IMG/VR virus record: IMGVR_UViG_3300006802_000558
Location: 1-24,177 of that record
Length of the DNA stretch: 24,177 nucleotides
DNA from: a virus
Strand: one strand, 5' to 3'
Shown: piece after piece, positions 5,064-21,239 of the stretch
Layout: each line of letters opens with the position of its first letter
Numbering within the stretch: the first letter of the stretch is position 1
The notes under the pieces: model-generated
What the model was told of the DNA's origin: nothing
The model's database searches: none
Seen by the model: the letters and a program-made list of their open reading frames with translations, nothing else
Program-made: the position numbers and the translations under genes

Positions 5064-6514
5064 TAGCGCCAGACCTCAATTTCAATTTTGTTATCGAGTA
5101 GATACTCGGTGATCCCAACTACCAGGCACACTTTTCCAGCGCTTAAGTCATATCTGTCGTCGTACAGCGTGATCGAGTCGCCGATCCTTATCTGGTAGGG
5201 AGCGGTAAACGCCTGGACCCGATATAGGAATCGTTGAACTCCATAGAGCGTCTGGAGCCTTTGCGCCTCGGTTGCCGCGTCTGCCTGGCTCTTTATGATG
5301 GAGGGCTTAACGTCCGGGTCTTGAGCTGAGAGGTGAGCGGTTTTAACGCTCGCGTCCTCATACTTTTCGACCTTCGAGAACTCTTCAGCTATCCAGGCTC
5401 GATGCGCTTCCGACACTGAGCTGGCTGGATCACTGTTGGGGGTCCAGTTCTTCTCGTAGCCCACACGCTGCCGCCAGGTGGGCGTATCCGCCTTATAGAC
5501 CTCAAGGCTGTTGTAAGTCTCAAGGTTGTCGATGTCCGCGACAGGGGAGGCGGGCTCATCGAGGACTGCGTAGACGAACGCACCGCTCCGGGTGAATCCG
5601 TAATACCAGCCGTTAGAGATCGAGTCGAGAACGTCCAGAAGGTTCTCCCGATCCTTAATGTAAAGACCGCAGTCATACGGGGCGGCTATAGCAAAGGCGG
5701 CCTTGGCAGTGGCGTCCACTGACGCTATTTCTCGCGTTACGACTCGCTCGATGATGTCGGCAAGGGCGGCGCTGTATCCCCCGGTTGCATCCCCTTGCAC
5801 GTCGCAAGTCAAAGCGCCCGAAGGCGCTGCGCTGAGAGTGAACTTGCCATTCGCTAGGTCTTTCGTGACCGTCAAGGCGGTGGCGGCCCCATCCTCGTAG
5901 ACTGCGGTTATGTCCTGGATGACCCCTTCATGCACCTGATACTCGTGCGTCGTGTCGTCTATCAAGACGGGGGTGATGTTTTTCACCTCGCCATAACAAA
6001 GCGGGACGACGTTGTCGGCATTAGGGCCAGACGCGATCAAGGTTTCCTGAATGGGTCTATCTAGTAACCGCTGTCGATCTCTGATTACTAACTCAAGCTC
6101 ACTGTCCGATTGGATGATGAGCTTCTCGCACACGCCAGAGATAACTGTGCGAAAGTCAGCGATCTCCCAGTTGGGATCGCCGAATTTAACTGTGATATCA
6201 CGACCGTCGAAGCTGTCCTCGATCCAGGAATCCAGCTCGCCGTCGTTGTTGTCAAATGTAAGTGAACCGAAGGAGACAAACGATCTCCCAGAGAACATCT
6301 CAGCCATCCGAGAGGTGAAGAAGGGCGATCCAGACAATACTCCGTTATAAGCCTGGTTCGGAGGAGTGTCCGAGGCCCCGGTGTTGAAGTAGTCGCTTCC
6401 AACGTACCGGGTCACCTCGGAGCCCCCGCTATAGACCTTAATCTCGGCAAGGATCAGGCGCTCTGCTTCATCATCTGAGAGCCAAGCCTGATATTGAGCG
6501 TCTGATATTGCCAT
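5063..6514 (-). CDS. Tail hub / tip baseplate-like protein
   Basis: The product has 483 residues and starts directly after the tape-measure stop. The N-terminal third (LILAEIKVYSGGSEVTRYVG, FVSFGSLTFDNNDGELDSWI, FDGRDITVKFGDPNW) has the strand pattern of distal-tail and hub proteins, followed by CEKLIIQSDSELELVIRDRQ. A middle section (VVPLCYGEVKNITPVLIDD, EGVIQDITAVYEDG) resembles the 'cYGev.n..P' segment of siphophage tip proteins. The C-terminal part (RLQTLYGVQRFLYRVQAFTA, IRIGDSITLYDDRYDLSAGK, VGITEYLLDNKIEIEVWR) is typical of hub domains. No lambda-style K, L, I or J homologue is seen, so this gene and the next probably replace that tip set. The hub role comes mainly from gene order and fold pattern. 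Confidence 0.65.
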   Translation of the reverse strand: MAISDAQYQAWLSDDEAERLILAEIKVYSGGSEVTRYVGSDYFNTGASDTPPNQAYNGVLSGSPFFTSRMAEMFSGRSFVSFGSLTFDNNDGELDSWIEDSFDGRDITVKFGDPNWEIADFRTVISGVCEKLIIQSDSELELVIRDRQRLLDRPIQETLIASGPNADNVVPLCYGEVKNITPVLIDDTTHEYQVHEGVIQDITAVYEDGAATALTVTKDLANGKFTLSAAPSGALTCDVQGDATGGYSAALADIIERVVTREIASVDATAKAAFAIAAPYDCGLYIKDRENLLDVLDSISNGWYYGFTRSGAFVYAVLDEPASPVADIDNLETYNSLEVYKADTPTWRQRVGYEKNWTPNSDPASSVSEAHRAWIAEEFSKVEKYEDASVKTAHLSAQDPDVKPSIIKSQADAATEAQRLQTLYGVQRFLYRVQAFTAPYQIRIGDSITLYDDRYDLSAGKVCLVVGITEYLLDNKIEIEVWR

Positions 6515-12862: not shown

Positions 12863-15800
12863 CTATGCCACCGTCACCCAAGTTTTATCCGGATCAAAAT
12901 AAATAACATCGGCCGATAAAGCGTAGCCGACAACCCTTACGATTGCATTCGAAGTCGTTGGTGCCGTCTGGGTGAACTCCCCAGCGGTCTCAGACACATA
13001 GAGAATCCCACCAACAGTCCACGCCCAAGCATCATTTCTTATAACAGCCGGTCCAGCCGTCACTTTCACCGGGTTCGATGCGGTGCCCGCCTCTAATGCG
13101 CAAGCAAGCATCACTGGCCCAGCGGTAGCAGACGCGGATGCGTCAACGTCAACCCATTGCGCCGACCCGTTCAGATAAACGAGATCACCCATTGCGAGCG
13201 TTTGACCTGCGCTCAGGTCATTAAACGTAAACCCGTTGGCCGTTGCATCTGTATCAGGGATGGCGTCGATCTTGATCTCGTGAACGTCGGTGAGATCAAA
13301 TCCGGCCATATTGATGTCAGCCGCTTGAGTCGAAGTGATATAGGAACCAAGGTCACTAATCTGACTCTCAGTTATAGTGAGAGCCGCCTCGTGGGCTGTA
13401 ACGTCTCCCTCGGTCACTGTATAACTGGTGATGTAGCCCGAGTCGTTCGTAAACGTCGACACGTTTGTCGGTGTGCCACTGAGGTCGCTGTAGTCGAGAA
13501 CTGCATCGACCCAGTTTGTCCCGTTGTGCCGGAGCACTTCGCCAGATGCCGCGCCAGTGATGGTTACGTCCGAATGGCCGCCAATGGACCCGAGGGTCGT
13601 CAGGTAGCCAGAGTCGTTCGTAAAGGTCGACACGTTTGTCGGCGTACCGGACAAGTCCGAGTAAGCCAGTTGCGTATCGACCCACGCAGATCCGTTGTAG
13701 CGGATGACCTCGCCAGTTGCGGCGCTAGAGATCGTAACGTCAGTCAGATCATTAAGCGCTCCACCTCCGCCACCAGTGGCATCGGTGTCGTTGATCCAGT
13801 TCGTGCCGTTGTACTTAAGAACCTGCCCATTGCTGGGGGTCGTGATAACAACGTCGGTGTGGCTATTGATTGACCCCGTTGAGGTCAAATAAACCCCTAG
13901 ATCGCTGATCTGACTTTCGGTGATCGTCAGCGCGGCCTCGTGGGCAGTGACATCACCCTCGGTTACCGTGTAGTCGGTGATATATCCTGAATCGTTCGTG
14001 AACGTCGACACATTGGTCGGTGTTCCGGTGAGATCAGAATAGGCCAGTTGCGCATCGACCCAGGCTGTCCCGTTGAATCTTAGAACCTCTCCCGTAGCTG
14101 CACCAGTGATCGTGACGTCGCTATGCCCGCTGATCGACCCAAGGGTTGTCAGGTAGGCTTGAAGGTCGCTAATCTGGCTCTCAGTGATACTGAGTGCCGC
14201 CTGATGGGCCGTTACGTCACTCTCGGTCACGGTATAGCCCGTGATATAGCCCGAGTCGTTGGCGAAGGCTGAGACGTTCGTGGGAGCGCCTGTCAGATCG
14301 CTGTAAGGGAGGGCTGTGTTTAGCCACGCCGTCCCACTGTAGCGCAGGACATTCCCAGCTGCCGGAGTCGTTACTGTTACGTCGGTGTGACTGTCGATGC
14401 TGCCGGTCGAGGTGAGATAACTGCCGAGATCGCTGATCTGACTTTCGGTGATTGTCAGTGCCGCCTCATGCGCAGTCACGTCGCCCTCGGTCACTGTATA
14501 ACCAGTGATATATCCAGAGTCATTCGTGAACTGGGAGACGTTGGTCGGTGTTCCTGACAGATCTCCATAAGCCAGTTGAGCGTCAACCCAGTTGGCCCCG
14601 TCGTACCGGAGAACCTCTCCAGTCGCCGCTGCCGTAACCACAACATCAGTGTGGCTGTTGATCGATCCGGTTGAGGTCAGGTAGGACCCGAGGTCGCTAA
14701 TCTGAGATTCCGTGATCGTCAGAGCCGCCTCATGCGCGGTGACGTCGCCTTGCGTTACGGTGTAGTCCGTGATATAGCCCGAGTCGTTGGTAAAGCTCGA
14801 CACATTGGTCGGCGTTCCGCTGAGATCGGAATAAGCTAGAGTTGCATCCACCCAGGCGGTCCCATTCCAGCGCAGGACTTCGCCCGTAGTCGGTGCAGTG
14901 ATCGTGACATCTGAATGACCACCGATTGGCCCTAGTGCCGTCAAATATGCGCCGAGGTCACTGATCTGCGACTCGGTAATGGTCAGGGCTGCCTCATGAG
15001 CTGTCACGTCACCTTCTGTGACAGTGTAGCCCGTTATGTAGCCCGAATCATTGGTGAAGCTCGACACGTTCGTCGGGGTTCCACTAAGGTCGCCATAAGC
15101 CAGAGTGGCATCAACCCAAGCGGAGCCGTTGTATCTCAGAACCTCACCAGTTGTAGCGCCCGTGATCGTGACATCAGTATGCCCGCCGATAGAGCCGACA
15201 GACGTGAGATATCCTGAATCGTTCGTGAACGTGGAGACGTTCGTTGGCGTCCCTGAGAGGTCGCTATAGGCAAGCGTCGCATCAACCCAGGCGGAGCCAT
15301 TGTACCGAAGCACCTCACCCGTCGCCGCCGATGTAATGGTGACGTCGGTGATGTCGTTCAAAGCACCGCCACCTCCGCCAGTGGAATCGGTGTCGTTGAT
15401 CCAGTTGGTCCCGTTGTATTTCAGCACCTGGCCATTCGATGGCGTGGTGATTACAACGTCGGTGTGCGAATTAATGCTCCCCGTCGAGGTCAGATAGGCC
15501 CCGAGATCGGAGATTTGCGACTCGGTGATTGTGAGAGCCGCTTCGTGATTGGTGACGTCGGCCTCGGTCACCGTATAGTCGGTGATGTAACCGCTGTCGT
15601 TTGTGAAGGTTGAGACGTTAGTCGGTGTCCCACTGAGATCACCATAAGCGAGGGTCGCGTTGACCCAGGCAGTCCCATTCCAGCGCAACACCTGAGCTGC
15701 CGAAGGCGTGGTCACTGTGACATCAGTGTGACCGTTGACACTTCCCAAAGAGGTCAGATAAGCCTGGAGATCGGTGATCTGACTTTCGGTGATGTTTAAG

Positions 15801-17506
15801 GCTGCCTCGTGAGCAGTGACGTCTCCCTCGGTGACGGTATATCCGGTTATGTAGCCGGAATCGTTCGTGAAGGCGGACACGTTGCTCGGTGTGCCGCTCA
15901 GATCGCTGTAATCCAGCGTCGCATCCACCCAAGCAGTCCCGTTGAATCTTAGGACTTCTCCGGTAGCTGCTGCGGTAACAGTGACATCGGTGTGGCCGCC
16001 AATGCTGCCCAAGCTCGTAAGATATGCGCCGAGGTCAGATATCTGGCTCTCGGTGATCGTTAAAGCTGCCTCGTGAGCTGTGACATCACCCTGCGTCACG
16101 GTGTATCCCGTGATGTATCCGGCGTCGTTGGTAAATGCCGAGACGTTGCTCGGGGTGTTTGCCAGGTCAGCGTAGTCGAGCTGTGTGTCGACCCAGTTGG
16201 TGCCGTTGAATCGCAGCACCTCGCCAGTCGCGGCTGACGTGATGAGGACGTCAGACAGCTCATCGAGCTGCGTCGCGCCTGATCCGTCGTTGTTTTGGTT
16301 GGTCCAGGATGTCCCGTTGTAGGTGAGGACCTGTCCGGTTGATGGCGTTCCCAGTGAGACATCGCTCAGGTCGTCAATATTCTGCGGCGTTGCATCCGCC
16401 ACATTAACCCAGTGCGTCCCGTTAAATTTAAGGAACTGACCCGTAGATGCTGACGTGATAATGACGTCATCGATGTCGTCGATATTGATGACCTTGTCGT
16501 CAGTGTCATTGATCCAGTTGGTGCCGTTGAATTTGAGTACCTGACCCGCAGATGGCACGCCAGTCGCAACATCAGAAAGGTCGTTCAGTTGTAGAGCGCC
16601 CTCGTCAGCACTGTTGACCCATCCAGCGCCGTCCCATTTAAGAACTTCGCCAGTAGAGGGGGTCGTGACCGTGACGTCGGTGTGACTGTCGATGCTGCCG
16701 GTCGAGGTCAGATAGGCCTGAAGATCAGAGATTTGGCTCTCAGTGATTGAGAGCGCTGCTTCGTGAGCCGTGACCTGAGACTCCGGTAAGGACCCGACGA
16801 TTTCGCTGTAGTCGACGTCAGCGTTGCCCCACTGAACGCCATCCCATTTCAGGACTTCGCCAGTAGCCGGGACAGCGATCACTACGTCGTCAAGCTCTGA
16901 CAGGTTTTCCTTGTCCAGATCGGGCGCAGCAATCCATTCCGCGCCATCAAATACGAGAACGTCGTTGGTATTAGGCGCTGGGATGTTGGTATCCGTCAGC
17001 TCCTCAAGGGAAAACGACGCGGTAAAGGTGTCGGTGTCATTGACCCACGCGGAGCCATTCCACTTCAAGACCTCATCGATCTGCGGCGATGTAATAGTGA
17101 CGTCCGAGAGATCGTCAAGCGCGTTCGAGCCTGCGCCAATGATAACGCCCGTCAGGTAGTCATTCAGGTTGGTGATCGCGCTGGCAAGGCTGATACCTGC
17201 CGCTGCGTCTTCGATTGTGATGTTGTTCCAATCGAGCCCCTTGATGACGGGCTTCTGGCCCTTGATGGTGCGAATCCAGATCTCGTCCAGATATTCGCCC
17301 TCGACCGCTTCCAGATAGTTTACTGGGAAGTTGTCGCCGTTATCCAGAAGGATGGTTGCACCGGACGAGTCCTTCGAGAAGTCGAGCTCGAACCCGGTAG
17401 GCGCAATGATGGATGGGGTGGTGGTTGCTGCGTTCTTTGAGAGCTTATAGTTGTCCGAAGAATAGAGGTTCGCGTCTATCTTTTGTGGTCGCGGCTGCTT
17501 TGCCAT
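12863..17506 (-). CDS. Giant repeat fibre at the head-tail gene junction
   Basis: The product has 1547 residues. Residues 1-128 form a unique N-terminal, probably anchoring, domain (FELDFSKDSSGATILLDNGD, YLDEIWIRTIKGQKPVIKGL). Residues about 129-1394 are repeats: first variable short units of about 35 residues ('LsDV.it.p..GeVLkwnGt.Wvn'), then nine units of about 88 residues with HTDVTVT, GEVLRFNGTAWVDA, DLSGTPTNVSTFTNDSGYIT, VTEGDVTAHEAAL and ITESQISDL, mixed with two 39+56-residue variants carrying GGGGG. Residues 1395-1547 are a C-terminal domain (AMGDLVYLNGSAQWVDVDA, ACALEAGTASNPVKV, YFDPDKTWV). Such fibres are trimeric shafts in other phages. The gene sits between head-completion and tail-terminator genes, not after the tail tip, so a head or neck fibre is plausible. 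Longest ORF in the window. Confidence 0.8.
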   Translation of the reverse strand: MAKQPRPQKIDANLYSSDNYKLSKNAATTTPSIIAPTGFELDFSKDSSGATILLDNGDNFPVNYLEAVEGEYLDEIWIRTIKGQKPVIKGLDWNNITIEDAAAGISLASAITNLNDYLTGVIIGAGSNALDDLSDVTITSPQIDEVLKWNGSAWVNDTDTFTASFSLEELTDTNIPAPNTNDVLVFDGAEWIAAPDLDKENLSELDDVVIAVPATGEVLKWDGVQWGNADVDYSEIVGSLPESQVTAHEAALSITESQISDLQAYLTSTGSIDSHTDVTVTTPSTGEVLKWDGAGWVNSADEGALQLNDLSDVATGVPSAGQVLKFNGTNWINDTDDKVINIDDIDDVIITSASTGQFLKFNGTHWVNVADATPQNIDDLSDVSLGTPSTGQVLTYNGTSWTNQNNDGSGATQLDELSDVLITSAATGEVLRFNGTNWVDTQLDYADLANTPSNVSAFTNDAGYITGYTVTQGDVTAHEAALTITESQISDLGAYLTSLGSIGGHTDVTVTAAATGEVLRFNGTAWVDATLDYSDLSGTPSNVSAFTNDSGYITGYTVTEGDVTAHEAALNITESQITDLQAYLTSLGSVNGHTDVTVTTPSAAQVLRWNGTAWVNATLAYGDLSGTPTNVSTFTNDSGYITDYTVTEADVTNHEAALTITESQISDLGAYLTSTGSINSHTDVVITTPSNGQVLKYNGTNWINDTDSTGGGGGALNDITDVTITSAATGEVLRYNGSAWVDATLAYSDLSGTPTNVSTFTNDSGYLTSVGSIGGHTDVTITGATTGEVLRYNGSAWVDATLAYGDLSGTPTNVSSFTNDSGYITGYTVTEGDVTAHEAALTITESQISDLGAYLTALGPIGGHSDVTITAPTTGEVLRWNGTAWVDATLAYSDLSGTPTNVSSFTNDSGYITDYTVTQGDVTAHEAALTITESQISDLGSYLTSTGSINSHTDVVVTAAATGEVLRYDGANWVDAQLAYGDLSGTPTNVSQFTNDSGYITGYTVTEGDVTAHEAALTITESQISDLGSYLTSTGSIDSHTDVTVTTPAAGNVLRYSGTAWLNTALPYSDLTGAPTNVSAFANDSGYITGYTVTESDVTAHQAALSITESQISDLQAYLTTLGSISGHSDVTITGAATGEVLRFNGTAWVDAQLAYSDLTGTPTNVSTFTNDSGYITDYTVTEGDVTAHEAALTITESQISDLGVYLTSTGSINSHTDVVITTPSNGQVLKYNGTNWINDTDATGGGGGALNDLTDVTISSAATGEVIRYNGSAWVDTQLAYSDLSGTPTNVSTFTNDSGYLTTLGSIGGHSDVTITGAASGEVLRHNGTNWVDAVLDYSDLSGTPTNVSTFTNDSGYITSYTVTEGDVTAHEAALTITESQISDLGSYITSTQAADINMAGFDLTDVHEIKIDAIPDTDATANGFTFNDLSAGQTLAMGDLVYLNGSAQWVDVDASASATAGPVMLACALEAGTASNPVKVTAGPAVIRNDAWAWTVGGILYVSETAGEFTQTAPTTSNAIVRVVGYALSADVIYFDPDKTWVTVA
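13325..17122 (-). repeat. In-frame repeat array (main unit about 264 bp, 88 residues)
   Basis: About 3.8 kb of tandem coding repeats within the fibre gene. Nine units are close to 88 residues; two composite units of 39 plus 56 residues, each with a GGGGG run, lie 535 residues (1605 bp) apart; the first part of the array has shorter units of about 35 residues. Copies are nearly the same as protein but differ at most synonymous sites, so exact DNA repeats are short. Confidence 0.9.
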
Positions 17507-17516
17507 TCCTTTGCCC

Positions 17517-17792
17517 CTAGCTGTAAATCAAGATCAAGGCTGTAAAGCCCTCGCCGTCATCTTCTTTTCCGACGACTTCGTAATTGGTTCCGCTATAAGT
17601 AAGCGTGTCGCCGTGATTGACACCTGAGACATCTATAGAGCGGCACTCGAAAACGGGATACTCGCTCTCGATATCGCCGACGACTTTGAATTCCCTGTCG
17701 AGAATCCCTCGCACTGTCGCCGCGTTGATCGTTGCATCTACGCCGAAATCAGTGAGAAGTTGAAGTCTGTCGTTGTCGCTTTCGACTGCCAT
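17517..17792 (-). CDS. Head completion / head-tail joining protein (gpFII-like)
   Basis: The product has 91 residues with AAGGA 7 bases before the ATG. The order of elements, LLTDFGVDATINAATVRGIL, an acidic strand, FECRSIDVSGVNHGDTLTYS, YEVVGKEDDGEGFTALILI, matches the small beta-barrel head-tail joining proteins related to lambda gpFII ('..DFGv.vt..g..f.gifd...v', 'l.crs.dv.gl..Gd.v...g..y.V'). It plugs the portal vestibule side and gives the surface on which the tail docks. It follows the capsid gene, as expected, and stops 10 bases before the repeat fibre. Confidence 0.75.
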   Translation of the reverse strand: MAVESDNDRLQLLTDFGVDATINAATVRGILDREFKVVGDIESEYPVFECRSIDVSGVNHGDTLTYSGTNYEVVGKEDDGEGFTALILIYS

Positions 17793-17815
17793 CTTTTTAT
17801 CCTTTGAAAATGGGT

Positions 17816-17836
17816 TGCCCCACCCCCGAAGGGGCA
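17816..17836 (-). terminator. GC-rich stem-loop after the capsid gene
   Basis: TGCCCC (17831-17836 on the minus strand) and GGGGCA (17816-17821) form a 6-bp stem; inside it CCCC-TTCG-GGGG is an alternative stem with a stable UUCG loop. Downstream is AACCCATTTTC, only a short T-run. It lies in the 62-bp gap after the major capsid ORF, a usual place for partial termination or message-stabilising hairpins. Confidence 0.45.
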
Positions 17837-17854
17837 GGGCTATCCCGTGCCTAA

Positions 17855-19762
17855 TTAGGCGGTGGTGATGTCTTTGATCGCCGCGAAAGACTCCACACGT
17901 CGGACAACGAAGTCGACGTCGTGGAACGCGGTGACACGGACAGCGCCGGTCGTGCTCAGTGAGTACGGATCAACGGCCAGATCAAGGCCGGACCACTCGC
18001 AGATCACGAGGTCGTTCCAGTTGCCATAGATCAGGGCGGAGCAAACTCCGCTGCTGGCGCCTTTGTCGAGGTCGCTGCGGACCTGGTTGCTGACCATCAG
18101 CGGATACCCCGCCAGTGAGTCGCCTTCCAGGAGGAAGCGAGCTTCGCCAGCAACCTTCTGGGTCTGACGCATGGCGCCTGCCACTTTCGGGTTGGTCAAA
18201 AACTTGAGCGCGCCGAATTCAGCGTTGTCGACGGCCACTTCCGTCTGAAGGTCGACGATGGAGGCCCAGTCAATCGCGCCGCCGTCGGTGCCCATCGGGA
18301 CGTCGTTGATCGCGTATGCGAGCACGCCGTCAGGCTGGTTGGCGTCCGCACCGCTGTCGCCGTGGATACCGGCGAAGTCAACGGCCAGGGCCATCACGGA
18401 AGCCAGATCATTTCGGATCAGCGCTTCGATTGACGGGTCGGACTGAATCATCAGGCGACGGCTCATGTCGACATAGGCTGCGACAGTGTGAGGCGTGGCT
18501 GACTTCTGCGCGAAGGTTGCACTCGACTCGGTCGGAGCAGCGTTCTCACCGACCCAGTAGGCGGTCGACGCGCTGTCCTGCACGGGGATCTGGATGTTGC
18601 CCTGGAGGCCTGAAAGGCTACGGGCACCCAGCGCGCGAATCACCTGCTTGTTTCGGAGCAGGTCGATAAACGACGCACCGAGGTGGTCGGTGCCGACCAG
18701 GTTACCGCCGTCGGCGGCTACGCCCACGGTCTGGTCACGATGGAGCACTTCGTTCGGGACCATGATGCCTCGAACTTCTTTGCCGTATGCTTTCGCAGCG
18801 GCTTCAGAGACTTCGCGCTCGAACGAGGCGTCTGCCTGCGCTTTCGAATCGGTCGGGTTTGCAAGGGCACGGATCGCGCGGACGAAAGAAAATTCTTTCG
18901 CTTCTTTTGCGCTCAGGCCAACTTCTTCTTTCTCTACGGACATGGGTTTTGATTCCTCAGTCATTCGCTCTAAGAGAGCGGCGTTAAACTCATCGACAGA
19001 TTTGCCTCCGTCGATAAACTCTTTAGCGAGATCAACCGCACCAGCCTTCTCGCCCATTACGGCGATATCGGCTGCGCGTTTACGTTCGGATCTGACAGCA
19101 TCCTCACGCGCCGCATTGACTTCGATCTCGGCGGATTTCTCGGAGACCTCTTCGGCGACTTCCTCGGCGACTGCGACTTCTTCCACAATCTCCTCGGCTG
19201 GCGCTTCAATGATCTCCTCGGATTTCACTTCCTCGGTCATTGGTGTTTCCTCGGTGTTTTCATCACTCCGACCAATTCCGACAGTCGCGTCCGCGGGAAT
19301 AGAAACTAGAGAAATCTCTAGAGGCTGCCACTTGTTCACGCGATAAACAGGTGGATTCCCATCGGTGGCGTCTCGCTCCATGACCATGTCAAGAACGCGA
19401 TAACCAACTGATATGGAACGTCGGATTCCATCAACCACGTCATTAAAGATTTCGGTAGCGCGGGCACCTCGACCGAAGCGCACTCTCGCACGACCGCGCC
19501 TGTCACCATCGACAGACACCGATTCCACAACCCCAACGTGGTCAGTAGGGTCATGGTCGACCAAGACCGGACCGCCTTCCGTCATACGATCCAACTGGAT
19601 CGACTCGGGCGAATGATCTAGGATTTCGATTCCAAAACTTCTCTCATATGGCTCCTCTGATGAGAAGGCCAGCTCAACGGTTCGCTCTTCTTCGTTGATT
19701 GCGTTGTCGTTCTTTGCAATCGTGAAGGCTCGCCGCTCAATCTTCTGTTTGTGGGGCTTCAA
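17855..19762 (-). CDS. Fused prohead protease - scaffold-like linker - major capsid protein (HK97 type)
   Basis: One ORF carries three parts. Numbering here is from an upstream in-frame TTG at 19786; the preferred start is the TTG at 19762 (residue 9), which has GGAGGG 8 bases upstream and gives 635 residues. Residues about 14-175 are a U35/S78-family prohead protease: VLVDHDPTDHVG with His78, GIRRSISVGYRV with a serine of the 'S.GY' motif (Ser126), and PLEISLVSIPADA with Glu157. Residues about 176-330 are highly acidic and helical (repeated EEV/EEI, then AKEFSFVRAIRALAN), like an HK97 delta or scaffold domain. From about 332 the HK97-fold capsid follows: VRGIMVPNEVL, LSGLQGNIQIPVQ, AYWVGENAAPTESSATF, AGIHGDSGADANQPDG, FVVRRVESFAAI. 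Protease and capsid are separate genes in HK97, so expression ratio and cleavage of the fusion matter. The start overlaps the portal gene. Confidence 0.85.
   Translation of the reverse strand: MKPHKQKIERRAFTIAKNDNAINEEERTVELAFSSEEPYERSFGIEILDHSPESIQLDRMTEGGPVLVDHDPTDHVGVVESVSVDGDRRGRARVRFGRGARATEIFNDVVDGIRRSISVGYRVLDMVMERDATDGNPPVYRVNKWQPLEISLVSIPADATVGIGRSDENTEETPMTEEVKSEEIIEAPAEEIVEEVAVAEEVAEEVSEKSAEIEVNAAREDAVRSERKRAADIAVMGEKAGAVDLAKEFIDGGKSVDEFNAALLERMTEESKPMSVEKEEVGLSAKEAKEFSFVRAIRALANPTDSKAQADASFEREVSEAAAKAYGKEVRGIMVPNEVLHRDQTVGVAADGGNLVGTDHLGASFIDLLRNKQVIRALGARSLSGLQGNIQIPVQDSASTAYWVGENAAPTESSATFAQKSATPHTVAAYVDMSRRLMIQSDPSIEALIRNDLASVMALAVDFAGIHGDSGADANQPDGVLAYAINDVPMGTDGGAIDWASIVDLQTEVAVDNAEFGALKFLTNPKVAGAMRQTQKVAGEARFLLEGDSLAGYPLMVSNQVRSDLDKGASSGVCSALIYGNWNDLVICEWSGLDLAVDPYSLSTTGAVRVTAFHDVDFVVRRVESFAAIKDITTA
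18941..18958 (-). promoter_or_regulatory. Second internal Shine-Dalgarno and ATG, near the capsid domain
   Basis: GAGGA (18954-18958) precedes an in-frame ATG at 18941-18943 by 10 bases (residue 282 counted from 19786). The peptide from there, MSVEKEEVGLSAKEAKEF, looks like a normal capsid-protein N-terminus and would give a 362-residue product. The spacing is a little long, so it is weaker than the site at 19240. Confidence 0.3.
19238..19252 (-). promoter_or_regulatory. Internal Shine-Dalgarno and ATG inside the protease-capsid ORF
   Basis: GAGGA (19248-19252) is followed after 7 bases by an in-frame ATG (19238-19240; residue 183 counted from 19786). It lies exactly at the junction between the protease and the acidic linker. 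Initiation here would give a 461-residue scaffold-capsid product without protease. Confidence 0.5.
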
Positions 19763-21239
19763 TTTCTTGACCCTCCGGTGCTTCAATGGAGACGCTGGTG
19801 CTCACCGTCTCTGCGGTGCTCATCTGCGTCGAGTTATCAATCGGGATATCCAGAGACTTCATAACTTCACGCTCTGCCTTGATCTCCATCCAAACGTCGT
19901 CCGGGTCTTTGCCCATCTCGCGGATGATGTCGGAGCGTGATCGAAGTCCCAGCCTGATCGCTTCCTTAGCGGCCTGCATATCCTTGACGGGGTCAACCCA
20001 TGACCAGCGTCGCGGTTGCCAGGTAGCCTCTTTGAATTTGTCGATTCGGGAGTAGCCCAAGGCGCCGCCCTGGACGACAATCTTTCCCGTCAACAATGAA
20101 AGTGCGAGCCACTCCTCAAAGATCGGTCTACAGAACGTGTCGATCAAAAACTCCTGGAGCATCTTCCAGGCTTCGCGGTCTTCAAGAACGCCAGCGCGGA
20201 TCGATGAGAAGTTGACCCCTTCGAGATCGTTCGCCAGGGTGTTGTAGGACACGCCAAGGCCTGAGGAGATGCCTCGGAGACAAGACTTCACGAAGCTCTC
20301 AAACTCGCCCGTCGGATAACTTGGGTCGAAAGCGGTGAAATCAACGTTTGCGGGCAACTGGTGAAATGTTCCAGGCTCCGCGTCGGTGATGATTTCGCCC
20401 TGATCGTTGTAATCTGTGCCTGTAAATGACTCGCCATCGCTGGATTTGAAGAATCCGAGCTTTGAAGCGCCAACGCGAGCAGCGACCACCGCCGCCTCCT
20501 CGTAAGCGTTCAACTGCTTCATGCGTGCGAGGGCTGTCGACATCCAGGGCAGGCCTCTTTTTTGCCCAATGCGCTCAGGCAAGAAGCCGTGAATCATGTT
20601 TTCGGCGCTGACTCTGGTGTAACTCTTCCCGTTGTAAACATAGGCGCCGCTGTTGTTGTCGGTGACGATGTGATACGCCACCGGCTCCGCCCATTCGTTG
20701 AATTCAATCCCGGCGCGTATGTAGTTGCCGCCCTTGAGACCGTCGTGCCTATAAGTCACGTCGATCAGCTGGGAATCAATAAACTGAAGCCTTAATCCTT
20801 TCTTCGTTTTGACCTTTCGGACAAAACACTCGCCATCGAGGACAACCGTTCGCATGTAAATCACCTGGGCCTGCTTCCATGAAAGCGTCCCAGTGACATC
20901 GCATGATCCACGTCGCCCCCAGGTCTCCCAAGCGCTCTCCACAGCCTCATTTCCGAGGGTATCGAGCCCACCCCTGGGGTTGGTGGCCCTGGACTGCATG
21001 ACCACACCATGAGGCCCTACAACGTTGCTCTGGACCAATTCGACGAAGCGTCGCGCGTAGTCGTTGTTCGCGTATTGCTCGCGAGATCGAGCCACCAGGG
21101 TGACGAGATTACCCTCGACGATCTGATCCGGCGTCTGCGGGGTCGCAGTCCACGAAGCGGTCAGTCGATCAACACGTCCCGCAGCGTAATTCCGTTTCTG
21201 AGGTGCTGGCTTCTTCTTAAATCTATCCCATAGTGCCAT
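19737..21239 (-). CDS. Portal protein (lambda gpB family)
   Basis: The product has 500 residues and starts one base after the stop of the preceding gene. Family features in order: a basic N-terminus (MALWDRFKKKPAPQKRNY), ANNDYARRFVELVQSNVVGP, a wing region with VVLDGECFVRKV and GLRLQFIDSQLIDV, MIHGFLPERIGQKRGLPWM, the clip and stem region FVKSCLRGISSGLGVSYNTL, LEGVNFSSIRAGVLEDREAW, FCRPIFEEWLALS and WQPRRWSWVDPVKDMQAAKE. It forms the dodecameric ring at one capsid vertex through which DNA is packaged and ejected. The length is normal for the lambda-type family. The C-terminal tail (about 30 residues, acidic) overlaps the start of the protease-capsid ORF. Confidence 0.93.
   Translation of the reverse strand: MALWDRFKKKPAPQKRNYAAGRVDRLTASWTATPQTPDQIVEGNLVTLVARSREQYANNDYARRFVELVQSNVVGPHGVVMQSRATNPRGGLDTLGNEAVESAWETWGRRGSCDVTGTLSWKQAQVIYMRTVVLDGECFVRKVKTKKGLRLQFIDSQLIDVTYRHDGLKGGNYIRAGIEFNEWAEPVAYHIVTDNNSGAYVYNGKSYTRVSAENMIHGFLPERIGQKRGLPWMSTALARMKQLNAYEEAAVVAARVGASKLGFFKSSDGESFTGTDYNDQGEIITDAEPGTFHQLPANVDFTAFDPSYPTGEFESFVKSCLRGISSGLGVSYNTLANDLEGVNFSSIRAGVLEDREAWKMLQEFLIDTFCRPIFEEWLALSLLTGKIVVQGGALGYSRIDKFKEATWQPRRWSWVDPVKDMQAAKEAIRLGLRSRSDIIREMGKDPDDVWMEIKAEREVMKSLDIPIDNSTQMSTAETVSTSVSIEAPEGQEIEAPQTED
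19771..19776 (-). promoter_or_regulatory. Shine-Dalgarno GGAGGG selecting a TTG start
   Basis: GGAGGG lies 8 bases before the TTG at 19762, inside the end of the portal gene. The upstream in-frame TTG at 19786 has no ribosome site. No in-frame ATG exists before the protease motifs, so a TTG start is the best choice. Confidence 0.6.

Follow-up and report, generated by a model that had tools for sequence, protein, structure and literature searches.

Salmonella phage Gifsy-2 reportedly carries protease, scaffold, and capsid in one gene, and in phage lambda the protease-scaffold frame of gene C contains an internal start that yields the scaffold Nu3 without the protease. According to the parts of PMC8508860 that deal with these phages, HK97 encodes its gp4 protease and gp5 as two genes, and Pseudomonas phage MD8 joins protease, scaffold, and capsid in a single gene product, gp5. 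Unlike the protein studied here, MD8 gp5 consists of a ClpP-like protease and a Mu-like capsid, and the MD8 section of that paper does not mention an internal start in it (PMC8508860). Closest to our locus are the phrog_617-type fusions of phages VP882, phiHAP-1, vB_EcoM-ep3, Arya, R4C, and FoX5, which have the same one-gene protease-scaffold-capsid layout over the whole length; for R4C, the main text of the structural paper gives a T=7 shell with 415 capsid copies (PMC10276861). Among the open-licence papers, judged by title and the beginning of the abstract, we found none that describes a second start inside such a fusion, and the 20 isolate records annotate the fusion as one coding sequence with no second start at the junction. 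This annotation poses the puzzle of how a phage can afford one protease per shell subunit, to which a conserved internal start offers an answer. We consider it probable (about 0.8) that the fusion gene described here has two in-frame starts, giving a 635-residue protease-scaffold-capsid chain and a 461-residue scaffold-capsid chain that co-assemble and are trimmed by the protease.

The window, that is, the whole 24,177-base viral record that we analyzed (IMGVR_UViG_3300006802_000558), has a lambda-like order of genes on the minus strand, namely the terminase small and large subunits, head-tail joining, portal, fusion, head closure, and tail genes. The features around the fusion are as follows.

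19737 to 21239, minus strand: portal gene, overlapping the start of the fusion by 26 bases
19771 to 19776, minus strand: Shine-Dalgarno sequence GGAGGG of the full-length start (pairing score -10.95)
17855 to 19762, minus strand: protease-scaffold-capsid fusion frame, 635 residues from TTG 19762, matching phrog_617 over residues 5-633 (E 2.5e-168)
17517 to 17792, minus strand: head-closure gene (lambda FII-like), downstream of the fusion

The frame, coordinates, and product sizes given in the preliminary description were borne out, because TTG 19762 to the stop at 17855 makes 635 codons and the internal ATGs at 19240 and 18943 would give products of 461 and 362 residues. The match to the phrog_617 "major head protein" profile extends over positions 5-625 of 626 and places the protein in that family of fusions. 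The NCBI model of a prohead protease/major capsid fusion (NF045541) scored 184 bits against a cut-off of 525 and matched the N-terminal half only (residues 22-300), and the protein falls outside that model. A tblastn search with the fusion matched 113 phage records, 55 of which cover at least 80% of the query, with identity below 60% throughout; to any relative found, the protein of the window is at most about 50% identical. The fusion as such is therefore not new but belongs to an established family.

The preliminary description had divided the protein into a protease, an acidic scaffold-like linker, and an HK97-fold capsid, and an AlphaFold2 model built from 49 family sequences (mean pLDDT 81.8) agrees with it in showing an ordered protease, a disordered acidic linker, a helical scaffold, and a capsid fold.

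19289 to 19741, minus strand: protease domain, ordered part, residues 8-158 (Pfam, AlphaFold2 model, and conservation of His-70 and Ser-118)
19124 to 19288, minus strand: disordered acidic linker, residues 159-213, which holds Met-175 (pLDDT about 33)
18743 to 19120, minus strand: scaffold region, mostly helical, residues 215-340 (AlphaFold2 model)
18674 to 18727, minus strand: flexible segment, residues 346-363, the probable region of maturation cleavage (AlphaFold2 and the alignment to R4C)
17858 to 18670, minus strand: HK97-fold capsid domain, residues 365-635 (Pfam, R4C alignment, AlphaFold2, and Foldseek)

In Pfam, residues 65-172 match Peptidase_S78 (E 9.8e-8, 32.7 bits against a cut-off of 21), and His-70 and Ser-118, which we take to be the catalytic pair of that family, are conserved in 165 of the 166 clusters of relatives defined below, which identifies the domain as an S78 prohead protease. 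Residues 361-630 match Phage_capsid (PF05065; E 4.6e-44, 151.3 bits against a cut-off of 24.2), and the best Foldseek match in the PDB is the R4C capsid (8gta, E 4.6e-21), as befits an HK97-type major capsid protein. The scaffold helices are predicted at residues 215-326, with a low-confidence break at 273-276 that holds Met-274. By sequence, the 268-residue R4C chain of 8gta aligns from residue 352 of the window protein. The mature shell protein thus probably begins near residue 352, in the flexible stretch and far downstream of both internal ATGs, with the proviso that the deposited R4C chain may begin at its first ordered residue. Cleavage near residue 352 would probably produce this N terminus from a chain begun at any of the starts, and the N terminus of the virion capsid therefore cannot tell the starts apart. 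In the main text of the R4C paper, neither "protease" nor any word beginning with "cleav" occurs (PMC10276861).

Two in-frame ATGs, each preceded by GAGGA, had been proposed as internal starts that could supply capsid alone, and both are present in the sequence.

19248 to 19252, minus strand: internal Shine-Dalgarno sequence GAGGA of the first internal start, conserved in the family
19238 to 19240, minus strand: first internal start codon, ATG, residue 175, 7 bases from GAGGA
17855 to 19240, minus strand: predicted short product, 461 residues, scaffold plus capsid, comparable to the HK97 gp5 precursor
18941 to 18943, minus strand: second internal ATG, residue 274, in the hinge, 10 bases from GAGGA at 18954-18958; not conserved

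Neither would yield capsid alone: the first gives scaffold plus capsid, and the second would leave the mature capsid preceded by about 78 residues. Both ATGs have a pairing score of -7.69, compared with -10.95 at the full-length start, whose codon is TTG. Among 200 synonymous shuffles, 47% reached or surpassed the internal Shine-Dalgarno score of the window, as did 31% of 200 codon-order shuffles, and, taken alone, the window gives an internal start signal that is indistinguishable from chance. Neither ATG beats chance here because a Glu-rich linker writes GAGGA cheaply.

We then turned to relatives. Loci from six of seven viral-contig scans and from one genome-contig scan were combined with the 20 isolates and the window to give 519 sequences, the window's own copy (L081) being left out; a scan with L084 as the query returned zero relatives. 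The family was matched in 516 of the 519, and 497 of these have a full-length fusion frame. The remaining 19 were set aside as not full length, 5 because they are cut by contig ends and 14 (the genome-contig loci L085-L098) because they have no protease of the same family in frame; the linker starts of some excluded loci were read by eye only, and L097 seems to have arisen separately, by fusion to a different protease. One of the nearer relatives (L003/L469) has a break in its fusion frame within the protease domain; it looks like a frameshift and may reflect an assembly error or a defective copy. Some Roseobacter phage and cyanophage fusions (L110, L114, L116, and L118) are annotated at about 790-840 residues, with extra residues ahead of the protease, and the fusion of CRP-823 (L115) is preceded by a separate gene of 717 bases that bears the name major capsid protein as well. 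The 497 fusions form 166 clusters at 70% identity and 114 at 60%. We defined the junction as the stretch from the conserved end of the protease (VGxGR) to the first scaffold helix and took the first in-frame ATG within it, ignoring the upstream sequence in the choice; a Shine-Dalgarno core (AGGA, GGAG, GAGG, or AAGG) starting at -15 to -8 was then scored as present or absent. G-U pairs were allowed in the first start scan, and the later pairing-score and shuffle tests used Watson-Crick pairs only.

An in-frame ATG lies between protease and scaffold in 162 of the 166 clusters, and in 129 of these 162 it carries a core at -15 to -8. Core positions peak sharply at -12 (76 clusters) and -11 (70), compared with a background of 1.8 per position, and shifting the search window by whole codons lowers the count to 10-27 of 162. 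Elsewhere in the gene, the first in-frame ATG has a core in 8/148 clusters in the protease, 15/120 in the scaffold helix, 6/111 in the hinge, and 5/166 in the capsid, and ATGs in frame +1 of the junction itself have one in 6/110 (controls overall, 3-12%). Other clusterings gave 91/111 at 60%, 201/271 at 90%, and 300/489 over all 497 sequences, the last rate being lower because of a large marine clade that has the Met without a Shine-Dalgarno sequence. The absence of the internal Shine-Dalgarno sequence and ATG from relatives that keep the fusion had been named as an observation that would speak against internal initiation; for the first start, most relatives have both.

Pairing scores agree with these counts. 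The best-scoring junction ATG is at or below -5.5 in 148 of 166 clusters, compared with 32 clusters for the hinge, 38 for the scaffold helix, 37 for a protease stretch, and 73 for a 60-codon capsid stretch. The mean junction score of -8.18 lies beyond both the synonymous shuffles (-6.39, S.D. 0.18) and the codon-order shuffles (-4.42, S.D. 0.20; 200 each), which indicates that the choice of codons and the choice of residues both lean toward the site. The residue that follows the junction Met is enriched for Ser, Pro, Asp, and Glu and depleted of Val, Leu, Gly, and Ala relative to 2247 control Mets. RNA around the 148 junction starts (40 bases) is predicted to fold at a mean of -3.8 kcal/mol, compared with -9.2 for other internal ATGs and -9.3 to -9.4 for shifted positions; for GC-matched ATGs, the means are -6.4 and -4.2, respectively, for controls and junction starts. 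Dinucleotide-shuffled junction windows fold equally little, so that the openness reflects composition rather than the order of bases and is weaker as an independent sign of a start than it first appeared.

The exceptions were also inspected. Eighteen clusters lack an ATG that reaches -5.5; a GTG or TTG with a strong site takes its place in 4 of them (L004, L186, L278, and L299), and the rest show nothing clear. Fifteen of the 20 isolates have the core at the first junction ATG, the other five being Serratia phage MQ-4, three cyanophages, and FoX5 (L105, L111, L116, L118, and L120). In the marine clade (L010-L080), most members keep one or two Mets just ahead of the scaffold helix (NTMTEP, MDNTPD, or MENTPD) without a Shine-Dalgarno sequence; this clade may use other kinds of start or may have given up the second start. 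Conservation of Met-175 as an exact alignment column is an uninformative measure, as linker columns are mostly gaps and the position of the Met drifts. Overall, the comparative evidence, which is one of sequence, indicates that ATG 19240 is very probably a real, conserved translation start.

ATG 18943 fared differently. Of the 111 clusters with an ATG in the hinge, 6 have a core, a proportion no higher than the background rate, and the six residues seen most often in the column aligned with residue 274 do not include Met. We therefore rejected ATG 18943 as a second start on comparative grounds, and its pairing with GAGGA is probably due to chance.

As a positive control, we scanned lambda gene C, where the best in-frame ATG is at 5342 (score -13.0), inside the C/Nu3 overlap and presumably the true start of Nu3; the lambda record (L528) annotates nu3 from 5132, a position with a weak Shine-Dalgarno score (-2.2). 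For the first start, the nested C/Nu3-like logic that the preliminary description had suggested is upheld by the signal that most of the family conserves where protease and scaffold meet, and, as judged from this comparison, the gene would work like lambda C/Nu3. It does not belong to the same class, because the lambda protease is of family S49 and capsid protein E has its own gene, whereas the window combines an S78 protease with the capsid in one frame. The predicted short product resembles HK97 gp5, that is, a delta domain plus capsid, and both the protease and the capsid are of the same families as in HK97, but the single open frame sets the window apart from the two-gene HK97 arrangement.

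Relatives in which the genes are split suggest how the fusion may have arisen. In Faecalibacterium phage FP_Epona and Dulem virus 34, the homologous protease is a separate gene with the start of the capsid gene right behind it, and a strong Shine-Dalgarno sequence precedes that start; they differ from the fusion in having a stop codon between the two genes and a capsid of another type. The protease stop of FP_Epona lies inside TAGGAGG, the Shine-Dalgarno sequence of the capsid gene, and that of Dulem virus 34 is a TGA inside the capsid gene's Shine-Dalgarno sequence, TGAGGAGG. In Dulem virus 34, the capsid ATG also shares the frame of the protease, so that nothing more than losing the stop would be needed to fuse the genes. 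Read by eye, the deltaproteobacterial loci L087, L088, L089, and L091 likewise have the capsid Shine-Dalgarno sequence within the last codons of an upstream protease-like gene. ES18 was considered as a fused outgroup and rejected, as its genes are separate. Fusions with another capsid type (Stenotrophomonas S1, RcKvothe, PBb002, B8b, and Pd_22F) have an ATG with a Shine-Dalgarno sequence behind the protease in five of five cases (scores -6.3 to -10.7), the ATGs being picked by eye and the one in Pd_22F being the second in-frame ATG. Most likely, a protease gene lost its stop while the ribosome-binding site of the capsid gene behind it persisted, and two genes could plausibly have become one in this way.

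Several other explanations have to be weighed against two starts. It could be that only the full-length chain is made, with several hundred fusion chains assembling and the protease trimming all of them, with the internal ATG and GAGGA arising as side effects of an acidic linker sequence. The window alone, with its 47% and 31% of shuffles, fits this idea, as does the frame that stays open in 497 of the 516 matched loci; however, an acidic linker does not account for a family-wide Shine-Dalgarno peak at the correct spacing before the in-frame ATG only, for the signal at synonymous sites, or for open RNA and a start-like second residue at the junction, and we regard it as unlikely. A Shine-Dalgarno-like stretch exactly at a domain boundary might instead pause the ribosome so that the protease folds before the scaffold is made, the Met being incidental. 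Such a pause would leave unexplained the ATG in 162 of 166 clusters, the -12/-11 peak measured from that ATG, and the low rate in frame +1 of the same stretch (6/110), and this is the explanation to which we give the least credence, scarcely any.

Use of both ATGs to make three products draws on their equal scores of -7.69 in the window and on their location in predicted flexible segments, but the background-level core at the hinge ATG and the lack of conservation of Met-274 make it quite improbable. The fact that the capsid start of the split relatives lies at the same place would also suit an internal start that is a fossil of a former capsid gene start, now out of use. In that case decay would be expected, yet 80% of the ATG-bearing clusters (70% identity) retain the spacing despite turnover of the position, the codons, and the neighboring residues, and we think a fossil very improbable.

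Returning to two in-frame starts, we propose that the portal and then the full-length fusion would be translated in sequence across their 26-base overlap. Ribosomes that start at TTG 19762 would make the full protease-scaffold-capsid chain, and those that enter independently at the internal Shine-Dalgarno sequence and ATG 19240 would make the scaffold-capsid chain, the equivalent of HK97 gp5. Both would co-assemble into the procapsid, with the long form, the minority, bringing the protease inside at the N terminus of a shell subunit. Cutting near residue 352, the protease would then remove the scaffold and itself and leave all chains as the same mature capsid subunit. Our analysis establishes the fusion, its domains, and an internal start signal conserved across the family; the synthesis of both products in this phage, their ratio, their co-assembly, the site of cleavage, and the route of origin are inferred from these, and it is a fair inference that the dose of protease is uncoupled from that of capsid. 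The conserved start predicts two protein products for a large family of phages, and the shell-building product may be overlooked in expression clones and annotations that consider just the full-length frame. More broadly, the odds seem to us evenly balanced that such fusions are dual-output translational devices in several tailed-phage lineages, in which a stop that overlaps or adjoins the capsid Shine-Dalgarno sequence was lost and the ribosome site kept. The minority full-length product would deliver the protease as part of a shell subunit and then remove it, no separate targeting signal would be needed, and the relative use of two starts on a single message would determine the protease dose.

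A promoter scan of 17400-20000 on the minus strand found no promoter-like site on the coding strand, and we therefore assume one message. At about 17815-17850 (minus strand), between the fusion stop and the head-closure gene, lies a G+C-rich inverted repeat, and phages Mano and Mica have terminators annotated at the equivalent place; the repeat may lower the expression of genes downstream of the capsid. Further along the minus strand, 12863-17506 encodes a repetitive protein of 1547 residues with tail-fiber-like PHROG matches (phrog_9627 and phrog_9729), and its place between head closure and tail terminator is unusual for a fiber gene in a lambda-like module. An antisense open frame of 250 residues without a PHROG match runs through the fusion (18594-19346, plus strand) and is probably a shadow frame; the VP882 record also annotates antisense genes inside its fusion.
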